This document shows positions 27,254 to 37,154 of a DNA stretch of 64,000 nucleotides, one piece after another. The notes under the pieces are model-generated. The model searched no databases, was not told where the DNA came from, and saw only the letters and a program-made list of their open reading frames with translations. Every line of letters starts with the position of its first letter. The first letter of the stretch is position 1. The DNA lies in NCBI RefSeq assembly GCF_004006665.1, contig NZ_QOCL01000001.1:372001-436000 (forward strand), written 5' to 3'. Both the position numbers and the translations under genes were made by a program. The DNA is from Halobacteriovorax sp. HLS. Its GTDB lineage: Bacteria > Bdellovibrionota > Bacteriovoracia > Bacteriovoracales > Bacteriovoracaceae.

Positions 27254-28462
27254 ATGAAGACATTCACTTTTTTACTTCTATCGACCCTACTCCTTTCATG
27301 CTCAACAAATAAAACAATCAATCCTGAGAACTCTTATTTAAAAGTCGTTCATTACAATATTAAAGAGCTTGATTCAAAAAAGTTAAACTCAGACTCTCCT
27401 CAAATCAAGGCCGTAAAAAATATTCTTTCAAAATTTGAATTCGATCTTCTCTCAATCAATGAAATACAATATGATTTTCCAAATATACCTAATGCTAAAT
27501 TCAAATCGGAAGGAGAGAACTTAGCTCTCTTTGCTCGAACAGTTGGACTCAAGGGCTATAATTCAATATTCTTTCCTGCAAACACTGGGAAAAATGCATT
27601 AAAGATAAACGCTACAGAATATCTCGATGACCTAAGTGATAAACGAGCACGTAGCTTTGCCGACCAAGACAACTTCGGAATCTATCCGGGTCAATATTCT
27701 ACGGGAATTCTTATTAAAGAAGATATTGAAGTTTTAGATATTAAGTCTATTCAATCAATAAAATGGAAAGAATTTAATCCAACTATTGATCTAAGTAGTT
27801 TTGCACGGGCCAATGGTGATAAAGTTAATGAGAAGATTAGTCTTTTTGACAAAAACTTTACTGACATTAAAGTTAAAAAAGGTTTAAAAACCTTCCATAT
27901 CATTTTACTGCATACAGTTCCCGCTTTTCACTTCGGAAATAAGTCGACGATTAACTATCAAAGAAATGCTGACCAACTAAGATTTCTCGAGTGGTATACA
28001 ACTGGCTCGACAGATATAGACGTAAAGTTAGAAAGAATCAATCCACTACCAAAAGGAGCTTCATATATTGCCATGGGAGACTGGAATACTGAGTTTAATC
28101 ACCCAAAGAATCCTGGTAGTAAAGTTTTAAGAAATTACTCCAAAAAGACAAATATTTGGCTTAAAGAACCTATCTCTCATACAAATGAATCCCCTTCTTT
28201 TGCTCCAAATAGATTAAAACTACAATTAGACTATATCAGCTATTCTAATGACTTCACTTCTATCCATTCTGGAATTTATACACCAGATGAAAAAAGAGTC
28301 GAACTAGGCTGTTCTACATCAACCTATCAAAAAAATATTAAGAGCTACTTTGACAAGAAAACTGGAAAAACTTGCTACGCAAAATTCTCTTCTGATTATC
28401 TAGAATTGAAAGAGGCTTCAGACCACCTCCCGATTTGGGTTAATTTAAATGTAAAGGATTAA
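27254..28462 (+). CDS. Lipoprotein of the endonuclease/exonuclease/phosphatase family
   Basis: 402 residues. A lipoprotein signal with lipobox LLLSC (Cys about 16) is followed by the EEP fold: VVHYNIKEL, LSINEIQYDF with the acidic metal ligand, HTVPAFH, MGDWNTEFN and a final ASDHLPIWV with the catalytic His. It should sit on the periplasmic face of a membrane and cut phosphodiesters; the substrate is open. It is about twice the size expected for the truncated EEP at 1-604. It overlaps the cheB stop codon in a shared TTAA. Confidence 0.88.
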   Translation: MKTFTFLLLSTLLLSCSTNKTINPENSYLKVVHYNIKELDSKKLNSDSPQIKAVKNILSKFEFDLLSINEIQYDFPNIPNAKFKSEGENLALFARTVGLKGYNSIFFPANTGKNALKINATEYLDDLSDKRARSFADQDNFGIYPGQYSTGILIKEDIEVLDIKSIQSIKWKEFNPTIDLSSFARANGDKVNEKISLFDKNFTDIKVKKGLKTFHIILLHTVPAFHFGNKSTINYQRNADQLRFLEWYTTGSTDIDVKLERINPLPKGASYIAMGDWNTEFNHPKNPGSKVLRNYSKKTNIWLKEPISHTNESPSFAPNRLKLQLDYISYSNDFTSIHSGIYTPDEKRVELGCSTSTYQKNIKSYFDKKTGKTCYAKFSSDYLELKEASDHLPIWVNLNVKD

Positions 28463-29865
28463 GAAGCTTTTTTGTTTTCAAACTTTACAGATAATTCAAC
28501 CATTTTATCCGCAATTTCATCTTTGTGTACAATATAACTAGCTCCATCAAGTTCTATGACTGCCTTTGGCATTCCGAAAACAACACAACTTTCTTCATTT
28601 TGAGCTATAGTTAGTGCTCCAAGATCTCTTAACTTTTTCATGCCTTTAGCACCATCACGCCCCATTCCAGTAAGCATCACTGCGATGAGGTTTTCCTTTG
28701 AGGCCATTTTTTCACACGAGTCAAATAGATAGTCCACAGAAGGTTTAAATCTGTTCACTGGAGCATCGTCTGTAATTTCAACAAAAGGTTTACCATGCTT
28801 TTGCTTTATTTTCATTTGCATCCCACCTGGAGCGATGTAAACAGTGTCGGCAACTATAGGCTCACCATCTTCAGCTTCCTTAACTCTAAAAGGACAAATA
28901 CCATTAATTCGATCAGCGAATGCCTTCGAAAATACGGCCGGAATATGCTGAACTATTACAATTGGCGGAATGCTATTTGGCAAACGACTCAAAATATCTT
29001 TGAGTGCAGTAGTTCCTCCAGTAGAAGAACCTATTACAATAGTACAATCTTTATTGAAGCTTCTCATTGATCTCGTGCTAGACTGGTGCACAGACTTAGT
29101 AACACTCTTAAACTTCGATGCTTCAACGACTTTTTCAATCATTATTGGAGCAACTTCTTGGATTTCTTCCATTTTCGGTTTTTGAATATAATCAAATGCT
29201 CCTGAATCTAAGGCCTCAAGAACGAGAGGTCCTTCTTGAATACTTACAGAGGTAATCATAATCGTAGGTATATTATACTTAGGTTGGATTAACTTTAATA
29301 ATTCTACACCATTCATTTCAGGCATATGTATATCTAAAGTAATTACATCTGGTTGAAACTTCTTTATCAGCTCTTCAACTTCACTTGGCTTTTCCGCTGT
29401 AGCGACGACCTCTATCCGAGAAGACTTAGACAAAATTCTCGACAATAAATTCCTAATTGTTTTTGAATCATCAACAATTAAAACCTTTACAATTTTAGGT
29501 TCATTATCTTCTTTTTCAGGTTTGGTAACTCTTAATTTACCTTCACTTGGAAAATAGATAATTTCAAAATTACCAAATCTTTCAACAAGCTTAACTGACT
29601 CGAAAGCATAGTTACTTGCACGAACTTTTAAAAGTTGAATAAAGCTAACCGCGCCAACAACTTTCAAAGTTAATTTATCTACTGGTTGACCTAGCTCACT
29701 TGAGGCTTTAGAAATGAACTCTTCGAAGTGTCCGCTTTGCAGCTCAATAGTGTTAACTAATAAACCGCAAGACTTACCACTTGAAGAGTTTAGAGTGATG
29801 AAACACTCATTTCCAACTTTGAAATAATACTCTTTTTGAATATATTCGCTGTAATACCTCATCAC
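28459..29865 (-). CDS. cheB: Chemotaxis methylesterase CheB with an N-terminal CheD-like extension
   Basis: 468 residues, about 120 more than E. coli CheB. Residues 125-245 are a receiver with phospho-acceptor Asp178 (TLDIHMPEM). Residues 273-465 are the methylesterase with the full triad Ser281 (GSSTGG), His307 (VQHIP) and Asp404 (GMGRDG). The added residues 1-115 look like a degenerate CheD: SSSGKSC (Ser27, Cys33) in place of T-x5-C, His46, LKVVGA, and a closing EIIYFPSEGKLRV strand. It removes methyl groups from MCPs. It starts 5 bases after the CheR fusion gene at a GTG, with ATG 29862 as the alternative. Confidence 0.93.
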   Translation of the reverse strand: MMRYYSEYIQKEYYFKVGNECFITLNSSSGKSCGLLVNTIELQSGHFEEFISKASSELGQPVDKLTLKVVGAVSFIQLLKVRASNYAFESVKLVERFGNFEIIYFPSEGKLRVTKPEKEDNEPKIVKVLIVDDSKTIRNLLSRILSKSSRIEVVATAEKPSEVEELIKKFQPDVITLDIHMPEMNGVELLKLIQPKYNIPTIMITSVSIQEGPLVLEALDSGAFDYIQKPKMEEIQEVAPIMIEKVVEASKFKSVTKSVHQSSTRSMRSFNKDCTIVIGSSTGGTTALKDILSRLPNSIPPIVIVQHIPAVFSKAFADRINGICPFRVKEAEDGEPIVADTVYIAPGGMQMKIKQKHGKPFVEITDDAPVNRFKPSVDYLFDSCEKMASKENLIAVMLTGMGRDGAKGMKKLRDLGALTIAQNEESCVVFGMPKAVIELDGASYIVHKDEIADKMVELSVKFENKKAS

Positions 29866-29870
29866 TTCAT

Positions 29871-31730
29871 CTAATCCCTACTTAAGTACTCGCTAGACAT
29901 GTAAGCAAAACTCGTCGTTGGAACAATATCTGTTGCAACTTCATTTAAGGATGAACTAACTCCTACATCCTCAATAAGTAACTGAGCATCGCTCCACTCT
30001 AGTAGTTGTTCTGCACTATGTGACGAACATTGCCCAAAGACTAAAATAGAAGACTTCTGATCCTTATGCTGTTCATAAGCGGGTTTGAATGCCTTTTTAA
30101 AGTCTGCAAGGTAAACCTTCCCAGGCTCTAGCTTAGCATCTACCGAGTCTAATATCTCTACAGGAAATCTTAACTTATCAGATAGTTCCTCTTGTATCGC
30201 TGCTAGCAAGTTATCCTGCCCCTCAAAGAGCATTAGAGTTGCAGGCTGCTTACCATGTAGTTCATGAAAGTATTTTACAACTTTTTTCTGATCACTGAGC
30301 GATGAAACAATTACTCTAAACTTTTCTTCAACTTTTTCTATAGCAACTTCTTTTTCAAAGGCCTTATCAATTGTACTAACATGGGCCTTGGTTAAGTTCT
30401 TATCAATATAGGCAACACGAAGCTTAGTTTTAATTTCTTCTCCACGCTCCATTAAGTTATTAAGCGCCGGCTTTTCAATAAAATCTGCCGCTCCTGCTCT
30501 CAAACACCTCATTGCGGCATCCGAATCTTCACGAGATGCAGACGAAATAACAACAACTGGAGGGTGATCATCATCATGATAAGTTTCAAGATATGTGACA
30601 CCATCCATTTCAGGCATGTGAATATCTAAAGTTACAACATCAACCTTTCCTTTAAGGTCTTTAAGTTGATTTCTTGCATCGATACCATTACAAGCAGTCC
30701 CAACAACTTCAAAGTCATCCGTACTAAATACCTTCTTAAGAAGAGTTAAGATACTTGATGAGTCATCAATACTAAAAACTCTCAGCTTTGAAGGCATAGA
30801 AAGCTTTGGCTGACTAACAGCAGGAGTAAGTGGCGCCGCTGCTGGAGTAGATGCTTCTGCAGAAGGTTCAACAACTTCAACTTTATGAGCGTAAACAGAA
30901 GGCCCAACATTAGCGATATCTAAATTAAGCCCACCTAATGATTCAGAAATTCCAGAGTAGAATAATCCTGTCTCATGGAGGTGTTTAAAAAAGTTATTTG
31001 TTATTTCTTCAATCTGATGCGACTTAAAGTAAATGAAAACATTTCGACAGAAGATAACATCAAAGATCTCACTTCCCATTTCTTTATGAAAATTTAAGAG
31101 ATTGTAAACCTTGAAAGTACAATTATTAGAAATAGATTTCTTTGCTTTAACGAACTCTGAAATCTCTCCAGTTCCTCTCGCCCAGTTATCACCTAGATAA
31201 TTCATAGGAACAGACTTTATCTCTCGTCTATGATAAACGCCATTTGCACCGATTTTCACAGACTCAGGATCAATATCACTACCTAAGATAGTAAATTTCA
31301 TCGTAGGGTCAAGTTTAGGAAGGTAGAAATTTAAAAACATTGAAAGAGAGTAAACCTCTTGTCCTCTAGAACAAGCAGCTGACCAAATCTTTAAAGTATT
31401 TTCACCTCTAGCTTTTACATTAGAGATTAATCGTGGAAGATTTTCTTTAAGATGTTCAAAGTGAGTAAATTCTCTAAAGAAGAATGTGTGATGAGTTGTT
31501 AGTAATGAAACTAAAACTCCAGATTCTTTATCTTTATGACTATCAATATAAGCAATATACTTTTCTGGAGTTGATAATCCAAGCTCACTCATTCTCTTTT
31601 TGATTCTTGTCTGAACCATTAGAGATTGTTTTTCGCCTAAAACATTCCCAGAAATTCTTGCTACTATACCACTAACTTTCTCTACTAATTCCTCATAAGG
31701 ATCTTCATTCATACTTTTTGCAACGCCCAT
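29871..31730 (-). CDS. CheR methyltransferase-receiver fusion with a CheB-like C-terminal domain lacking the triad
   Basis: 619 residues. CheR (about 9-285) has TTHHTFFFREFTHFEHL, the SAM loop IWSAACSRGQEVYSL and FCRNVFIYF. A Pro/Ala linker (290-312) leads to a receiver (316-435) with Asp369 in TLDIHMPEMDG. The last 150 residues follow the CheB esterase layout: FRVIVSSLSDQ in the GASTGG position, LEPGKVYLA in the pG-vYiAP position, and ending WSDAQLLIEDVG. The Ser, His and Asp of the triad are absent. It should methylate MCP glutamates; the dead esterase part may bind substrate or control the complex. AAGGTGT precedes the ATG. Lies between the MCP and cheB genes. Confidence 0.88.
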   Translation of the reverse strand: MGVAKSMNEDPYEELVEKVSGIVARISGNVLGEKQSLMVQTRIKKRMSELGLSTPEKYIAYIDSHKDKESGVLVSLLTTHHTFFFREFTHFEHLKENLPRLISNVKARGENTLKIWSAACSRGQEVYSLSMFLNFYLPKLDPTMKFTILGSDIDPESVKIGANGVYHRREIKSVPMNYLGDNWARGTGEISEFVKAKKSISNNCTFKVYNLLNFHKEMGSEIFDVIFCRNVFIYFKSHQIEEITNNFFKHLHETGLFYSGISESLGGLNLDIANVGPSVYAHKVEVVEPSAEASTPAAAPLTPAVSQPKLSMPSKLRVFSIDDSSSILTLLKKVFSTDDFEVVGTACNGIDARNQLKDLKGKVDVVTLDIHMPEMDGVTYLETYHDDDHPPVVVISSASREDSDAAMRCLRAGAADFIEKPALNNLMERGEEIKTKLRVAYIDKNLTKAHVSTIDKAFEKEVAIEKVEEKFRVIVSSLSDQKKVVKYFHELHGKQPATLMLFEGQDNLLAAIQEELSDKLRFPVEILDSVDAKLEPGKVYLADFKKAFKPAYEQHKDQKSSILVFGQCSSHSAEQLLEWSDAQLLIEDVGVSSSLNEVATDIVPTTSFAYMSSEYLSRD

Positions 31731-31746
31731 TTTTACACCTTGTTAG

Positions 31747-33948
31747 TTAAACATCTTCAAATCGTTCATCATCTGCACTTGGAACATCAAGTGAAGATCC
31801 GACTGCTTTCTTTGTTACAGCTGGGCTATCGGCTGTAAAGTCGTCTTCGCTTGACTTAATATTTTCTTCATTTGTAATATTTTCTTTTATATCAGAAATA
31901 TTTATTACATTACTCTTTTCAACTTTTGCTTTTCCACCACTTACTAGTGAGCTAAGATCATCTACAACTTCAGCAAGGCGCTTTGACTCCGTATTTAATA
32001 CTTCCGAAGACTGCAAGGCCTCAATTGAGATAGTTGAAGTACTATGTGTCATTTCATCTAGCTGGCTCATTGCTTTAGCAACCTCTTTAATTCCTGACGC
32101 CTGCTCATTTGATGCATTAGTAATTTCAGAAACCTTGTCATTTACTTCCAATACATTTACTAATATTTGATCTAGAACCTCTTCACACTCTTTAGCCGTC
32201 TTAGTTCCAAGCTCAACTTTCTCTTGCCCGACAGAAGAAAGTGAACCAATCTTAGATTTTGTATCAGATACGATTGATTCAACTCTCTTGACACTCTCTC
32301 CTAGCATATCACTAATCTCAGTTGCAGCTTTACCACTGGCAGTTGCTAAGGAACCAACCTCTTCGGCAACCACAGCAAAACCTTTTCCATGTTCTCCAGC
32401 TCTAGCGGCCTCGACAGAAGCATTGAAAGAAAGTAGTTTAGTTTGAAATACGATATCATTAATAACATTAGTCTTATCGCCAATCTCATTGATGACACTA
32501 ATGATCTCATTCATCTTAGTACTAATATTATTCATTTCATTTACAATCTCTTCATTTGAATGATTAATCTCACCCATTGCCCCAATCATATTGGTTACTG
32601 AAACTTTTCCTCTTTGAGCAACCTCTTTAGATTCTTGTGACTTTTTACTTGAGAGTTCAACATTTTCTAAGTTCTTATTTACCATTGAAGATAATTCATC
32701 AAGGGTTGATACCGTCTCTTGAATTGCAGATGCAATTTGGTTAGCACTGTCACTTCGACCTTCAGAGTTTGATTTCATTTTATTTGCATTGCTATCAACT
32801 TCTTTAGCAACTTCCCCAAGAACCTCGTTAGCTGATACGATAGGAGCAACAAGTTTCTTACTAACAAACATCCCAATCAAGGCTATTAAAACTAAAGCTA
32901 CTGTCGCCAAGATTGTTACAAAAATCATCATTGCTTTAACAGGTGCAAACATTTCGTCTTCTTGGATCTCTGTTACGAGTGCCCAATTTTGATTATACAT
33001 TTTAATAGGAGAATAATAGCTTAGAACATCTTTGCCATTAGGGTCCTTAATAAAATGTGTTGCGCTCTTCCCTTCAATTGCTAAATCAACTGAGGGACTT
33101 TTCATAGGTTCATTGTTCTTAAATGAATTAAGAGTATTAAATTTTTCTTTATTTACATAGAAATCAGTTCGAAGGAGTTTATCTGCACCTACTAAATAGG
33201 CCTGACCAGTTTCCCCCATACCGACTCTTTGAGAGACAGTCGCGCTCATCAAGTCAACATCAATTTGAGTGATAACGATTCCCATATCATCACCCTTTTT
33301 AATCCCCTCAGAGAGGTGATCAAATTCAGCAAATTGCTTAATACAATAGAAGGCATCTACTGAATTACTAATTTTATTATATTCATATCCACTAAAAAAT
33401 AATTTTCCAGTGGTGTCTGCAACTGCCTTAGAAAAGCACTTTTCTAGTAAAGTACCTTTGTAGCCTCCATTTAAGAGATTTCGTCCTAAGAAAATATTTT
33501 TCTTATCCGGAATCGCTGTCAGGATGACGGTAGAGTCAAGAGAAACTAACATAAAATTTTTCAAGGAAAAGTCTTTCGTTAGCTCTGTAGTTCTCTGTCC
33601 GTATGTTTGTTCTAAACTGTCATACTGTGAAGTATTAATGTCCTGATCTTCACCAGGAAATAAACTTGCACCATAAAAAGCCCCTTCATAAGCTAGAAAA
33701 AGTCCTTCAACGAGCCTATTCTTCCCCATTCTTTCTGAGAAAACTTTAGTCTGCCTCTCGATTTGAGTTAAACGACTTTTTATCATTTCTCCCATACTCG
33801 AAAACTGATTAATAGATTGTGCTTGAAGAGCTTCTCTTGACTTAAAGTATGAAACAGAAGCAACAATTGTGATGCATACAAAGGCAACAGTAATTATCAC
33901 AAATAATACTTTAAATCTAAAACTAGCTTGATTGGGGCTTTTATTCAT
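31747..33948 (-). CDS. Methyl-accepting chemotaxis protein with double Cache domain
   Basis: 733 residues. One transmembrane helix near residues 12-33 and a second near 342-365 enclose a periplasmic dCache-like ligand domain of about 300 residues. No HAMP domain is obvious after the second helix. The cytoplasmic coiled coil has the conserved tip [19 protein letters not shown], which contacts CheA and CheW, with methylation-type Glu/Gln pairs on both sides. A flexible tail of about 80 residues ends in DDERFEDV, nearly the same as the end of the MCP at 42816. It lies in the che cluster, 16 bases ahead of the CheR fusion gene. Confidence 0.93.
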
Positions 33949-33967
33949 TTTTATTCCAAATTTTAAA

Positions 33968-34417
33968 TTATTTCCAAATACCTGAACCAGCGATCCAGTT
34001 TAATCCACCTTCACACTTCTTAACATATGAAACTTTTGGTGTTGCTTTTTCTGCACCAGGCTTGGCCCATACATAATCAACCCAACCACCAGCAGCATCG
34101 GCCTTTGCTTTCTTGTCGAACTCAACAAATAAAGGAACGCCATTTTCGTCTTTACTTCCCTTAAGGTCCTTTCCATTTAGTCTTCTTTTAATAGGATGTA
34201 GAACCATTTTTACGTCTGAATCTTGAATCCAAACATAGTTAGACCCACAGTATCTATACTTTCCGATTTCTCCGAGAGCACCTTTACCTTTGGCCTTAAT
34301 TAAATCACACATTTTCTCTACTGATTCTTTAGCTTGTTCTTTAGAACAGTCTGCTGCAAAAGTGTTTGACATGCACAGTGAGAACACGCCCACTGCTAAT
34401 AGCGATAGTTTTTTCAT
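33968..34417 (-). CDS. Stand-alone periplasmic single-Cache protein
   Basis: 149 residues from ATG 34417, with AAAGGAG five bases ahead. A signal peptide ([20 protein letters not shown]) is followed by one Cache domain: [39 protein letters not shown] and [17 protein letters not shown]. Such domains bind small ligands and normally form the outer part of receptors, but here no membrane anchor is attached. Its place just ahead of the MCP gene in the che cluster suggests a soluble periplasmic partner that delivers or modulates ligand for that receptor. That role is inference. Confidence 0.82.
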
Positions 34418-34492
34418 AATTTCTCCTTTGTTGAAGAATCGTCCATTTCTCAATTTTTCTTAACTAAAAATAACCTTAATTTATAAATAAAT

Positions 34493-34518
34493 TCAAAAAA
34501 AAAGCCACATAGTGGCTT
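34493..34518 (-). terminator. Intrinsic terminator after cheW
   Basis: AAGCCAC pairs with GTGGCTT around a 3-base loop and, on the minus strand, runs directly into about nine T. It lies just after the cheW stop codon, so cheA-cheW forms one transcript and the Cache-MCP-CheR-CheB genes another. Confidence 0.85.
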
Positions 34519-34521
34519 AAT

Positions 34522-35022
34522 TTATGCTGCTCTTTTTTTCATTGCATTGACGTCTTTTATATCAAGAACCTTTGCAACGTTTAGAAGAACTGTAAGGGAG
34601 TCTTCTTTTCGATAAACTCCGTAGATATATTCAGCATTAACTTGAGTTTCAATTTCAGGAACTTCATTTACTTCCTTTAAGGAAAAGGCCAGTACTTTAT
34701 TTATCGAGTCTACGACTATTCCTAAATTCATTCCATCAAGATCAACAATAATAACGCTCTCTTCATTATTATTTTCTCTGGCCTTTATTTTTAGCTTCGT
34801 TCTCATATCGACAACAGAAATAACTTGTCCTCTTAAGTTCATAATTCCTAGAAAATGAGGAGGAGCTTTCGGTATGGGAGTTGTTTCAGGAACAGAAATT
34901 ACTTCACGAACTGATAGTAATGGAATTGCATAATCTTCCGCTCCAAGACTAAACTCCAAGAATCTCTGAATTTCTGAGCTTTCTTCTTCAGCGAGTGAGA
35001 GATTGTGATTTTCATTGTTCAT
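34522..35022 (-). CDS. cheW: Chemotaxis coupling protein CheW
   Basis: 166 residues. It is a scaffold linking MCPs and CheA. The CheW beta-fold is plain: FLEFSLGAEDYAIPLLSVREV, PIPKAPPHFLGIMNLRGQVISVVDMR and VIIVDLDGMNLGIVVDSI. An N-terminal extension of about 15 residues is acidic. The ATG overlaps the cheA stop codon by one base (TAATG), so both are translated in a coupled way. Confidence 0.95.
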   Translation of the reverse strand: MNNENHNLSLAEEESSEIQRFLEFSLGAEDYAIPLLSVREVISVPETTPIPKAPPHFLGIMNLRGQVISVVDMRTKLKIKARENNNEESVIIVDLDGMNLGIVVDSINKVLAFSLKEVNEVPEIETQVNAEYIYGVYRKEDSLTVLLNVAKVLDIKDVNAMKKRAA

Positions 35023-37154
35023 TACGCCACCTTTCCTAATAAGTCTTCTTTAATATTTGTATTATTCTTCTTCATTGATCCGCTATAAAGCTCATTTAAA
35101 TCTAGAATAAAAGATGGTTTACCATCTCCTAGAATTGAACTTCCCATGAAGCCTTTAGTATTTTTAATTTCTTCACCTAAAGTTTTAATCACCACTTGCT
35201 GCTGATGAAGTATATCATCAACTAAAACAGCAAAAGGATTTTCTGAAGCCTGAATGATGATTGCAATCTTATCAGACTCAGTACCTTCATCCATCGCAAC
35301 ACTTAGAGTTTTTCCTACATTAAAAAGCGGTAATACCTGACCTCTTAAATTCAGACATTTTCCCCAACCTGTAACTTCATGAATAATTTCTTTAGTAGGC
35401 TTTAATGACTCATGTACTTGAGAAAGTGGAATTATAAATTTTTCTCCACCAGTTCTAACAACCATTCCATCAATAATCGCCATTGTCAGAGGAAGTACAA
35501 CCTTAAACACAGAACCTTTTCCTTGCTCAGTTTTAACTTTAACTTCACCTGATAGCTTTTCTATATTTGTCTTAACAACATCCATCCCAACACCACGTCC
35601 AGATACTTCTGTAACTTGTTCTTTCGTCGAAAAACCTGGATGAAAAATATATTGGATAATATCTTCATCAGAAATAGACTGACCTGGCTTAATAAGACCT
35701 TTTTCTGTTGCCTTTCTTCTAATCACATCAGCAGGAATACCACTACCATCATCAGAGATTTCTATTACAAGGTTATTTCCTTCATGTAATGCTCTAATTG
35801 TGACATTTCCAACTTCATCCTTACCACTTTTAACTCTATCTTCTGTTGACTCTAAACCATGATCAACAGCATTTCTTACTATGTGAACAAGAGGATCTGA
35901 TAAATGCTCAAGAACAGTTTTATCAATTTCTGTTTCTTCTCCAAAAAGTGTTAACTTAACTTTCTTATCTAGAGTTTTAGAAGTGTCTCTAACAATTCTA
36001 CTCATTTTTTGTAGAGTTGATTTAACAGGAACCATTCTAAGTGACATTGAGATTTCTTGAATCTCTTTTGATAGTTTTCCTAGTTGCGATATAGATTTAT
36101 TTGTTAGTTGATCCTGAACGGCACTAAACCTACTTTGATCTAATACTGTTTGTAGAATAACTAACTCTCCTACAACATTATTAAGCTTCTCTACTCTTGA
36201 TAGTGAAACTCTTATACTTTCATCTTCCGTTATTTTTTTAGCCGGTGACTTAGAAGCAGCAGGTGCTTTTGGTGCAGCCTTTTTCTCTTCTACAACTGGC
36301 TTAATAGGCTGAACGTTATCCGCAGGAGCAGTAACAGTTGGTGTTTTATCAGCAGCATTTGAAAACTTTAAACCTTGTTCAGTCTTTGTGTCTTCTAGTC
36401 CCGATATAATATCATCGTCACAAGTTCCTAGCTCTCTAAGAGCTTCAATTGCTGCAGCTGATATCTCAGGAGCAGCTGCACTTTCTTCAATAATAGTTTC
36501 AGTTTTTGACTCTAATTCTGCCAATAAACTATCATCAACATTTCCTAATTCTTTCAAGGCCTCAAGAGCTGCCGCTGATATTTCTGTATCTTCGTTACTT
36601 GATGGCTCCTCACCAATAACTTCATCTAATATTTCTTCTAATTCACTTTCAAAGTCTATTGAATCTTCACTTTCCCAGTTTGATTCATCAGCTATGATTT
36701 CAGAACTAATTTGTTCTACTTCTTCAACATTAGAATCTGTAGCTTCTACAGCTTGCTCACCAGATAGATCTCCATTTAAAGCAGAGTGAATTTTTGCAAC
36801 AATGGCTTCACTTTCAAATGTTGCATCCATATCATCTTTAAGGGTTTGAATCATATGTGTTATATGATCATTACACTCTAATAGAAGGGAAACAATTCCA
36901 TCAGTTACTGGTAATTCACCTGTTTTAACTTTTAAGATTAGGTTTTCCATTTCATGGGTAAATTCAGCAACCTCACCGAAACCAACGGCCCTAGAAGTCC
37001 CTTTTAGGTTGTGGGCAAGTCTAAAAATTTGATCTAAGAGTTCAGAGCTTTCTTTATCATTTTCTAAAGCAAGAAATGACTGCTCCGTGTCTTCAAGTAA
37101 CTGAAGTGACTCATCTAGGAAATCTTCTTTTAGCTCTCTTTCAAAATCGTCCAT
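35022..37154 (-). CDS. cheA: Chemotaxis histidine kinase CheA
   Basis: 710 residues. The HPt domain (1-125) carries His48 in RLAHNLKGTS. A long acidic linker (130-310) replaces a recognisable P2 domain. It contains a 25-residue element twice, at about 191-215 and 230-254, sharing EISAAA, EAL, ELG and DD. The dimerisation helices, the ATPase core (HIVRNAVDHGLES, DDGSGI, GRGVGMDVV) and the C-terminal CheW-like domain (IIPLSQVHESL, NLRGQVLPLF) follow and look intact. It phosphorylates response regulators; the receivers visible here are those of CheB and the CheR fusion, since no CheY gene lies in this window. Confidence 0.95.
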   Translation of the reverse strand: MDDFERELKEDFLDESLQLLEDTEQSFLALENDKESSELLDQIFRLAHNLKGTSRAVGFGEVAEFTHEMENLILKVKTGELPVTDGIVSLLLECNDHITHMIQTLKDDMDATFESEAIVAKIHSALNGDLSGEQAVEATDSNVEEVEQISSEIIADESNWESEDSIDFESELEEILDEVIGEEPSSNEDTEISAAALEALKELGNVDDSLLAELESKTETIIEESAAAPEISAAAIEALRELGTCDDDIISGLEDTKTEQGLKFSNAADKTPTVTAPADNVQPIKPVVEEKKAAPKAPAASKSPAKKITEDESIRVSLSRVEKLNNVVGELVILQTVLDQSRFSAVQDQLTNKSISQLGKLSKEIQEISMSLRMVPVKSTLQKMSRIVRDTSKTLDKKVKLTLFGEETEIDKTVLEHLSDPLVHIVRNAVDHGLESTEDRVKSGKDEVGNVTIRALHEGNNLVIEISDDGSGIPADVIRRKATEKGLIKPGQSISDEDIIQYIFHPGFSTKEQVTEVSGRGVGMDVVKTNIEKLSGEVKVKTEQGKGSVFKVVLPLTMAIIDGMVVRTGGEKFIIPLSQVHESLKPTKEIIHEVTGWGKCLNLRGQVLPLFNVGKTLSVAMDEGTESDKIAIIIQASENPFAVLVDDILHQQQVVIKTLGEEIKNTKGFMGSSILGDGKPSFILDLNELYSGSMKKNNTNIKEDLLGKVA

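Follow-up and report, generated by a model that had tools for sequence, protein, structure and literature searches.

A CheR methyltransferase carrying a receiver and a degenerate CheB methylesterase domain in a chemotaxis operon of Halobacteriovorax sp. HLS

The chemotaxis operon and its CheR and CheB proteins

The window (the whole 64,000-nucleotide stretch of DNA analysed, from a marine predatory bacterium) carries a minus-strand chemotaxis operon (28459–37154) comprising cheA, cheW, a small Cache-domain protein, an MCP, the CheR gene and a CheB gene. All coordinates given below for this operon are on the minus strand. The CheA kinase (35022–37154; Hpt, H-kinase_dim, HATPase_c and CheW domains) is the presumed phosphodonor of both receivers encoded downstream, and the MCP (31747–33948; Pfam MCPsignal, E 1e-38) is the presumed substrate. 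CheW (34522–35022; Pfam PF01584, E 5e-35) is separated from the MCP by a free-standing single Cache domain (33968–34453; sCache_2, E 4e-20) with a signal-like stretch at its N-terminus. Most of the relatives examined also had cheA and cheW upstream.

Several features of these neighbouring proteins were recorded in passing. The linker of CheA (36426–36581, inside cheA) contained the short motif ISAAALEALKELG twice; close relatives had one to three copies in their CheA, and none was matched in more distant relatives. A P2-like domain was not matched in CheA, and the linker motif may dock receivers. The C-terminus of the operon MCP reads DERFEDV and is not an NWETF-type pentapeptide, which in enterobacteria tethers CheR. 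Outside the window, at G000:C1:487244–488254, a CheD match and a CheR match were located near each other, both in open frames of 406 aa, so that a CheD-CheR fusion is possible there.

The CheR gene (29871–31730) encodes a protein of 619 aa. CheR_N was detected at residues 19–66 (E 1.5e-5, slightly under the curated cut-off), followed by the SAM-binding methyltransferase domain of CheR (residues 81–271, 30918..31490; Pfam PF01739, E 5e-43), a receiver (REC; residues 318–427, 30450..30779; Pfam PF00072, E 1e-20) and a last domain of 155 aa (residues 465–619, 29874..30338), identified below as a degenerate CheB methylesterase domain. The first-pass annotation of this DNA had read the same order, CheR, a receiver with Asp369 and a CheB-like region, and all three parts were recovered, the first two by Pfam and the last by profile comparison and predicted fold. 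The CheR domain aligned with CheR structures 1bc5/1af7 (phmmer, E 1e-31) and retained the FFRE, SxGxE, SDID and CRNVxIYF motifs, whose columns were invariant among 17 orthologues; with these motifs kept, it is probably active. The receiver is apparently a working one, judging from its phosphorylation residues (D322/D323, the phosphoacceptor D369, S397 and K420), which were invariant in 35 relatives. Scanning the genome contigs with the full-length alignment returned one clear orthologue, the remaining matches being generic CheR or receiver genes.

A few bases past the stop of the CheR gene begins a partner gene (28459–29865; 468 aa) encoding a CheD-like N-terminal domain, a REC domain (Pfam, E 5e-25) and a CheB methylesterase domain (Pfam CheB_methylest, E 4e-62). 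The GSSTGG, QHIP and GMGRDG motifs of the latter are intact, which bears out the earlier statement that a live CheB lies next door. For the first 120 residues of the partner no meaningful Pfam match, and no CheD match, was obtained in any of 28 members. In profile–profile comparison (hhalign) the N-terminal domain (29512–29856) matched the CheD profile with Prob 87.7 and a score of 38.7, shuffled profiles reaching ≤14.7. CheR, REC, live CheB and dead CheB were also tried as its identity and gave no profile match (≤16.9), leaving CheD alone. The LGSC...H catalytic motif was absent from the window partner and from the aligned relatives with a CheD-like domain; a Cys one place off the CheD catalytic column occurred in the window's genus only. 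The N-terminal domain of the partner therefore seems, as far as sequence comparison goes, to be a degenerate CheD-like domain, and its own profile found it in many genomes with the dead CheB domain, across the phylum.

Ancestry and predicted fold of the last domain

Searched alone against Pfam, NCBIfam and PDB sequences, residues 465–619 gave nothing significant, and the PF01339 cut-off was reached neither by the full protein nor by the isolated last domain. Matches of the isolated domain to UBR5, HycI and other proteins in the HMM and PDB sequence searches were rejected as chance. We gathered orthologues of the complete protein, drawn from its family and its phylum, and aligned their last domains. 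A profile of 17 of these degenerate domains, built with no live CheB included and run on 369 Bdellovibrionota genomes, also retrieved live CheB ORFs (E 1e-6 to 1e-4 per genome, over profile positions ~33–114). Aligning 35 degenerate with 38 live CheB domains in hhalign gave Prob 91.3 and a score of 47.2 over 158 columns. The controls scored lower: 60 column-shuffled profiles reached ≤17.7, the CheR profile 13.9 and the reversed live-CheB profile 12.7, and the REC profile scored 23.9, which came from 7 columns of common linker.

The predicted structure pointed the same way. An AlphaFold2 model of the last 188 residues, computed from 17 degenerate sequences (pLDDT 83, pTM 0.79), retrieved only CheB among its top eight PDB chains in Foldseek (E 3e-6 to 6e-5), with an unrelated chain coming next at 4e-3. 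When the model was superposed on the CheB catalytic domain, as had been proposed in the first-pass annotation, CheB chains were nearest in VIA-align (6ymz, Z 16.8; 1chd, 16.2; 3sft, 15.9; 1a2o, 15.8), followed by the archaeal CheB 7esg (10.8) and the first unrelated fold (10.0).

A second AlphaFold model, covering REC and the last domain (309 residues; 35 degenerate sequences; pLDDT 88.6, pTM 0.78), aligned with full-length CheB over 293 residues for 6ymz_C (Z 24.7, rmsd 4.5) and over 300 residues for 1a2o_A (Z 24.2, rmsd 4.9), compared with Z 18.6 for the top receiver-only match. Since these alignments span both domains, the rear half of the protein corresponds to a whole CheB chain. In the prediction the two domains sit relative to each other largely as they do in CheB, a placement taken from one AlphaFold model, and the larger rmsd over two domains permits some shift between them.

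That the last domain is homologous to the CheB methylesterase had been judged by eye; it is now backed by profile searches, by hhalign with its shuffled controls and by the predicted fold, which agree with one another. The outcome named beforehand as refuting the homology, namely a profile result or fold with no relation to CheB, was looked for and did not turn up. Descent of residues 465–619 from a CheB methylesterase domain is thus well supported.

Loss of the catalytic residues and origin of the dead form

None of the GxSTGG, QHxP and GMGxDG motifs was found in the last domain of the 619-aa protein, in agreement with the first-pass annotation that its catalytic triad is missing, although one detail needs qualifying. 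Ser477 of the window protein falls in the Ser164 column of the profile alignment, but that column is Ser in just 13/35 relatives. The Thr165 column holds a bulky hydrophobic residue in most of the 35 degenerate domains, the His190 column Glu503 (Glu/Asp in 28/35 relatives) and the Asp286 column Ser570, with scattered residues across the relatives. In addition, a segment of ~30 residues following the YIAP strand of live CheB has been deleted in the degenerate domains. With the motifs absent, the catalytic columns unconserved and this segment missing, the methylesterase reaction has very likely been lost, insofar as this can be read from residues. Because the Ser-His-Asp triad was looked for and not found, the domain does not count, as an enzyme, among the CheB methylesterases.

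The same fusion, which the first-pass annotation had proposed looking for in other Bdellovibrionota, occurred across the phylum, degenerate relatives (17-domain profile, E ≤1e-16) being present in 91/369 genomes from 13 families. The phylum also contains CheR-REC-CheB fusions whose catalytic motifs are intact, 14 in all, at twelve other loci (L081–L087, L089–L091, L094 and L095). In a maximum-likelihood tree of dead and live fusions, built on CheR plus REC, the 42 dead proteins formed one clade (UFBoot 96, SH-aLRT 95), with a single origin recovered in 97% of the 200 bootstrap replicates, although the bootstrap had yet to converge fully and certain rows were long. This clade was nested among the live fusions, with the fusion at L081 as its sister (100/97).

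A live REC-CheB ORF directly followed the dead gene in 35 of the 42 cases and was part of the same polypeptide in 3 more (38/42 in total). Single chains with the order CheR-REC-pseudoCheB-CheD-like-REC-CheB (1053–1181 aa) were found at L061 (1109 aa), L062 and L088. For the other 4/42 dead proteins the stretch examined showed no partner gene; one of these four, G358, has an X-REC-CheB ORF on another contig. An adjacent, separate REC-CheB was found for none of the 14 live fusions in the stretch read. The single-chain versions and the near-constant adjacency suggest, on gene organisation, that the CheR protein and the partner CheB form a physical pair.

Our computations support an origin of the dead form in a CheR-REC-CheB fusion whose motifs were intact, a single ancient loss, conservation of the domain ever since and its near-constant pairing with a second, live CheB. 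In the best-fitting course of events, an active fusion first acquired a second CheB; the copy linked to CheR then ceased to be catalytic, and the domain itself was kept.

Proposed function and comparison with known systems

We infer that the protein joins CheR to a whole, catalytically dead CheB response regulator, whose REC-pseudoCheB pair acts as a phosphorylation-switched docking module for receptors or the partner CheB; we give this reading a probability of about 0.55. CheA of the same operon would phosphorylate both receivers, in the CheR protein at Asp369 and in the partner. Phosphorylation of Asp369 would alter the packing of the receiver against the pseudo-CheB domain, as it does in true CheB. 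The pseudo-CheB domain, no longer an enzyme, would then serve as a switchable docking surface holding CheR to receptors, to the partner CheB or to both, so that methylation and demethylation would be run by one paired adaptation complex in which the partner CheB has taken over catalysis from the old domain. The invariant REC residues of the 35 relatives and the modelled CheB-like arrangement fit such a phosphorylation-gated module.

Both partners seem to bear a degenerate copy of an adaptation enzyme, a pseudo-CheB domain on CheR and a CheD-like domain devoid of its motif on CheB. An extended form of the docking reading, which we put forward tentatively and hold to be rather doubtful, is a complex of reciprocal pseudoenzymes, with a dead CheB on CheR and a dead CheD on the live CheB, in which one CheA, by phosphorylating the two receivers, would switch both pseudo-domains and so coordinate the addition and removal of methyl groups inside a single particle.

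The first-pass annotation had raised competition for MCP sites beside a phosphorylation-gated scaffold. On the former reading the dead domain would instead be a competitive brake, occupying the CheB-binding face of the receptor when phosphorylated and barring the live CheB, so that CheR wins. Retention of the CheB fold and of the CheB-like receiver arrangement would suit such a role, as would the live CheB that is nearly always encoded alongside. However, deletion of the ~30-residue segment beside the active site and the unconserved catalytic columns speak against a preserved receptor-binding cleft. With the former active-site region not conserved, competition is less supported than docking, and we consider it unlikely.

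Conservation lies elsewhere in the domain. A C-terminal P-x-T-S-F (residues 604–608) was near-invariant, the P and S of P-x-T-S being invariant in 35 sequences, and an acidic residue close to the old QDE position was conserved. The near-invariant motif and this acidic residue might be taken as signs that the domain has acquired a different catalytic or ligand-binding function resting on other residues, for instance the conserved S607, S561 and E587, yet the conserved polar residues are few and no known ligand-binding family was matched, making a new activity improbable.

The domain diverges widely between genera, all but the closest relatives being 26–38% identical to the window protein, which might indicate a functionless, decaying relic kept for no other reason than its place at the end of the gene. 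Within the genus, however, amino-acid identity of the dead domain (0.76) equalled that of live CheB (0.77; CheR, 0.80), and dN/dS was ~0.09, a rough figure because synonymous sites were close to saturation. Retention in 91 genomes and 13 families and the invariant P and S likewise argue against decay. As the domain is conserved, we set the relic aside as very improbable. Finally, an unrelated alpha/beta fold resembling CheB by chance, for which pairwise identity to CheB of just 10–16% and the silence of HMM libraries on the isolated domain could be cited, is barely credible given the Z-scores of CheB chains (15.8–16.8, against 10.0 for other alpha/beta folds), the profile matches that stand against their controls, the same position behind a receiver and CheB-type linker, and a tree that places the domain within CheR-REC-CheB fusions.

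The textbook view has phosphorylation acting on CheB only, with CheR left unregulated. The fusion of CheR with a conserved pseudo-CheB domain and a receiver that apparently works leads one to predict that the methyltransferase is likewise subject to phosphorylation feedback, in a broad group of carriers that includes predatory bacteria. The steps from active fusion to retained module make up a defined evolutionary series, which the natural live, dead and single-chain variants allow to be tested.

In the literature searched, most of it from outside subscription journals, no account of CheR fused with an inactive CheB turned up, and the novelty of a pseudo-CheB on CheR is accordingly provisional. 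The consulted portion of a Bdellovibrionota genome study lists CheB and CheR and mentions no fusion (PMC8067016). The cheBR fusions reported for Geobacter unite CheB and CheR in one protein, as here; they are named only in a table footnote, with neither domain order nor catalytic state (PMC8396549).

The closest known architecture for the rear half is CheB itself (1a2o, 6ymz; PF01339 with PF00072), which shares the receiver and the alpha/beta methylesterase fold, their order and a similar arrangement. Compared with CheB, the window protein has neither the catalytic motifs nor the ~30-residue segment, has the C-terminal P-x-T-S-F and carries the module behind CheR. The live CheR-REC-CheB fusions of the phylum have an identical domain order and lie just outside the dead clade in the tree, but differ in possessing GxSTGG and GMGxDG and in having no second CheB adjoining. 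The partner gene has its own counterpart in a CheD-REC-CheB protein of the same family (L025), which has the same domain order and adjoins a cheR; the CheD domain of that protein retains LGSC and the His, whereas the window partner keeps neither.
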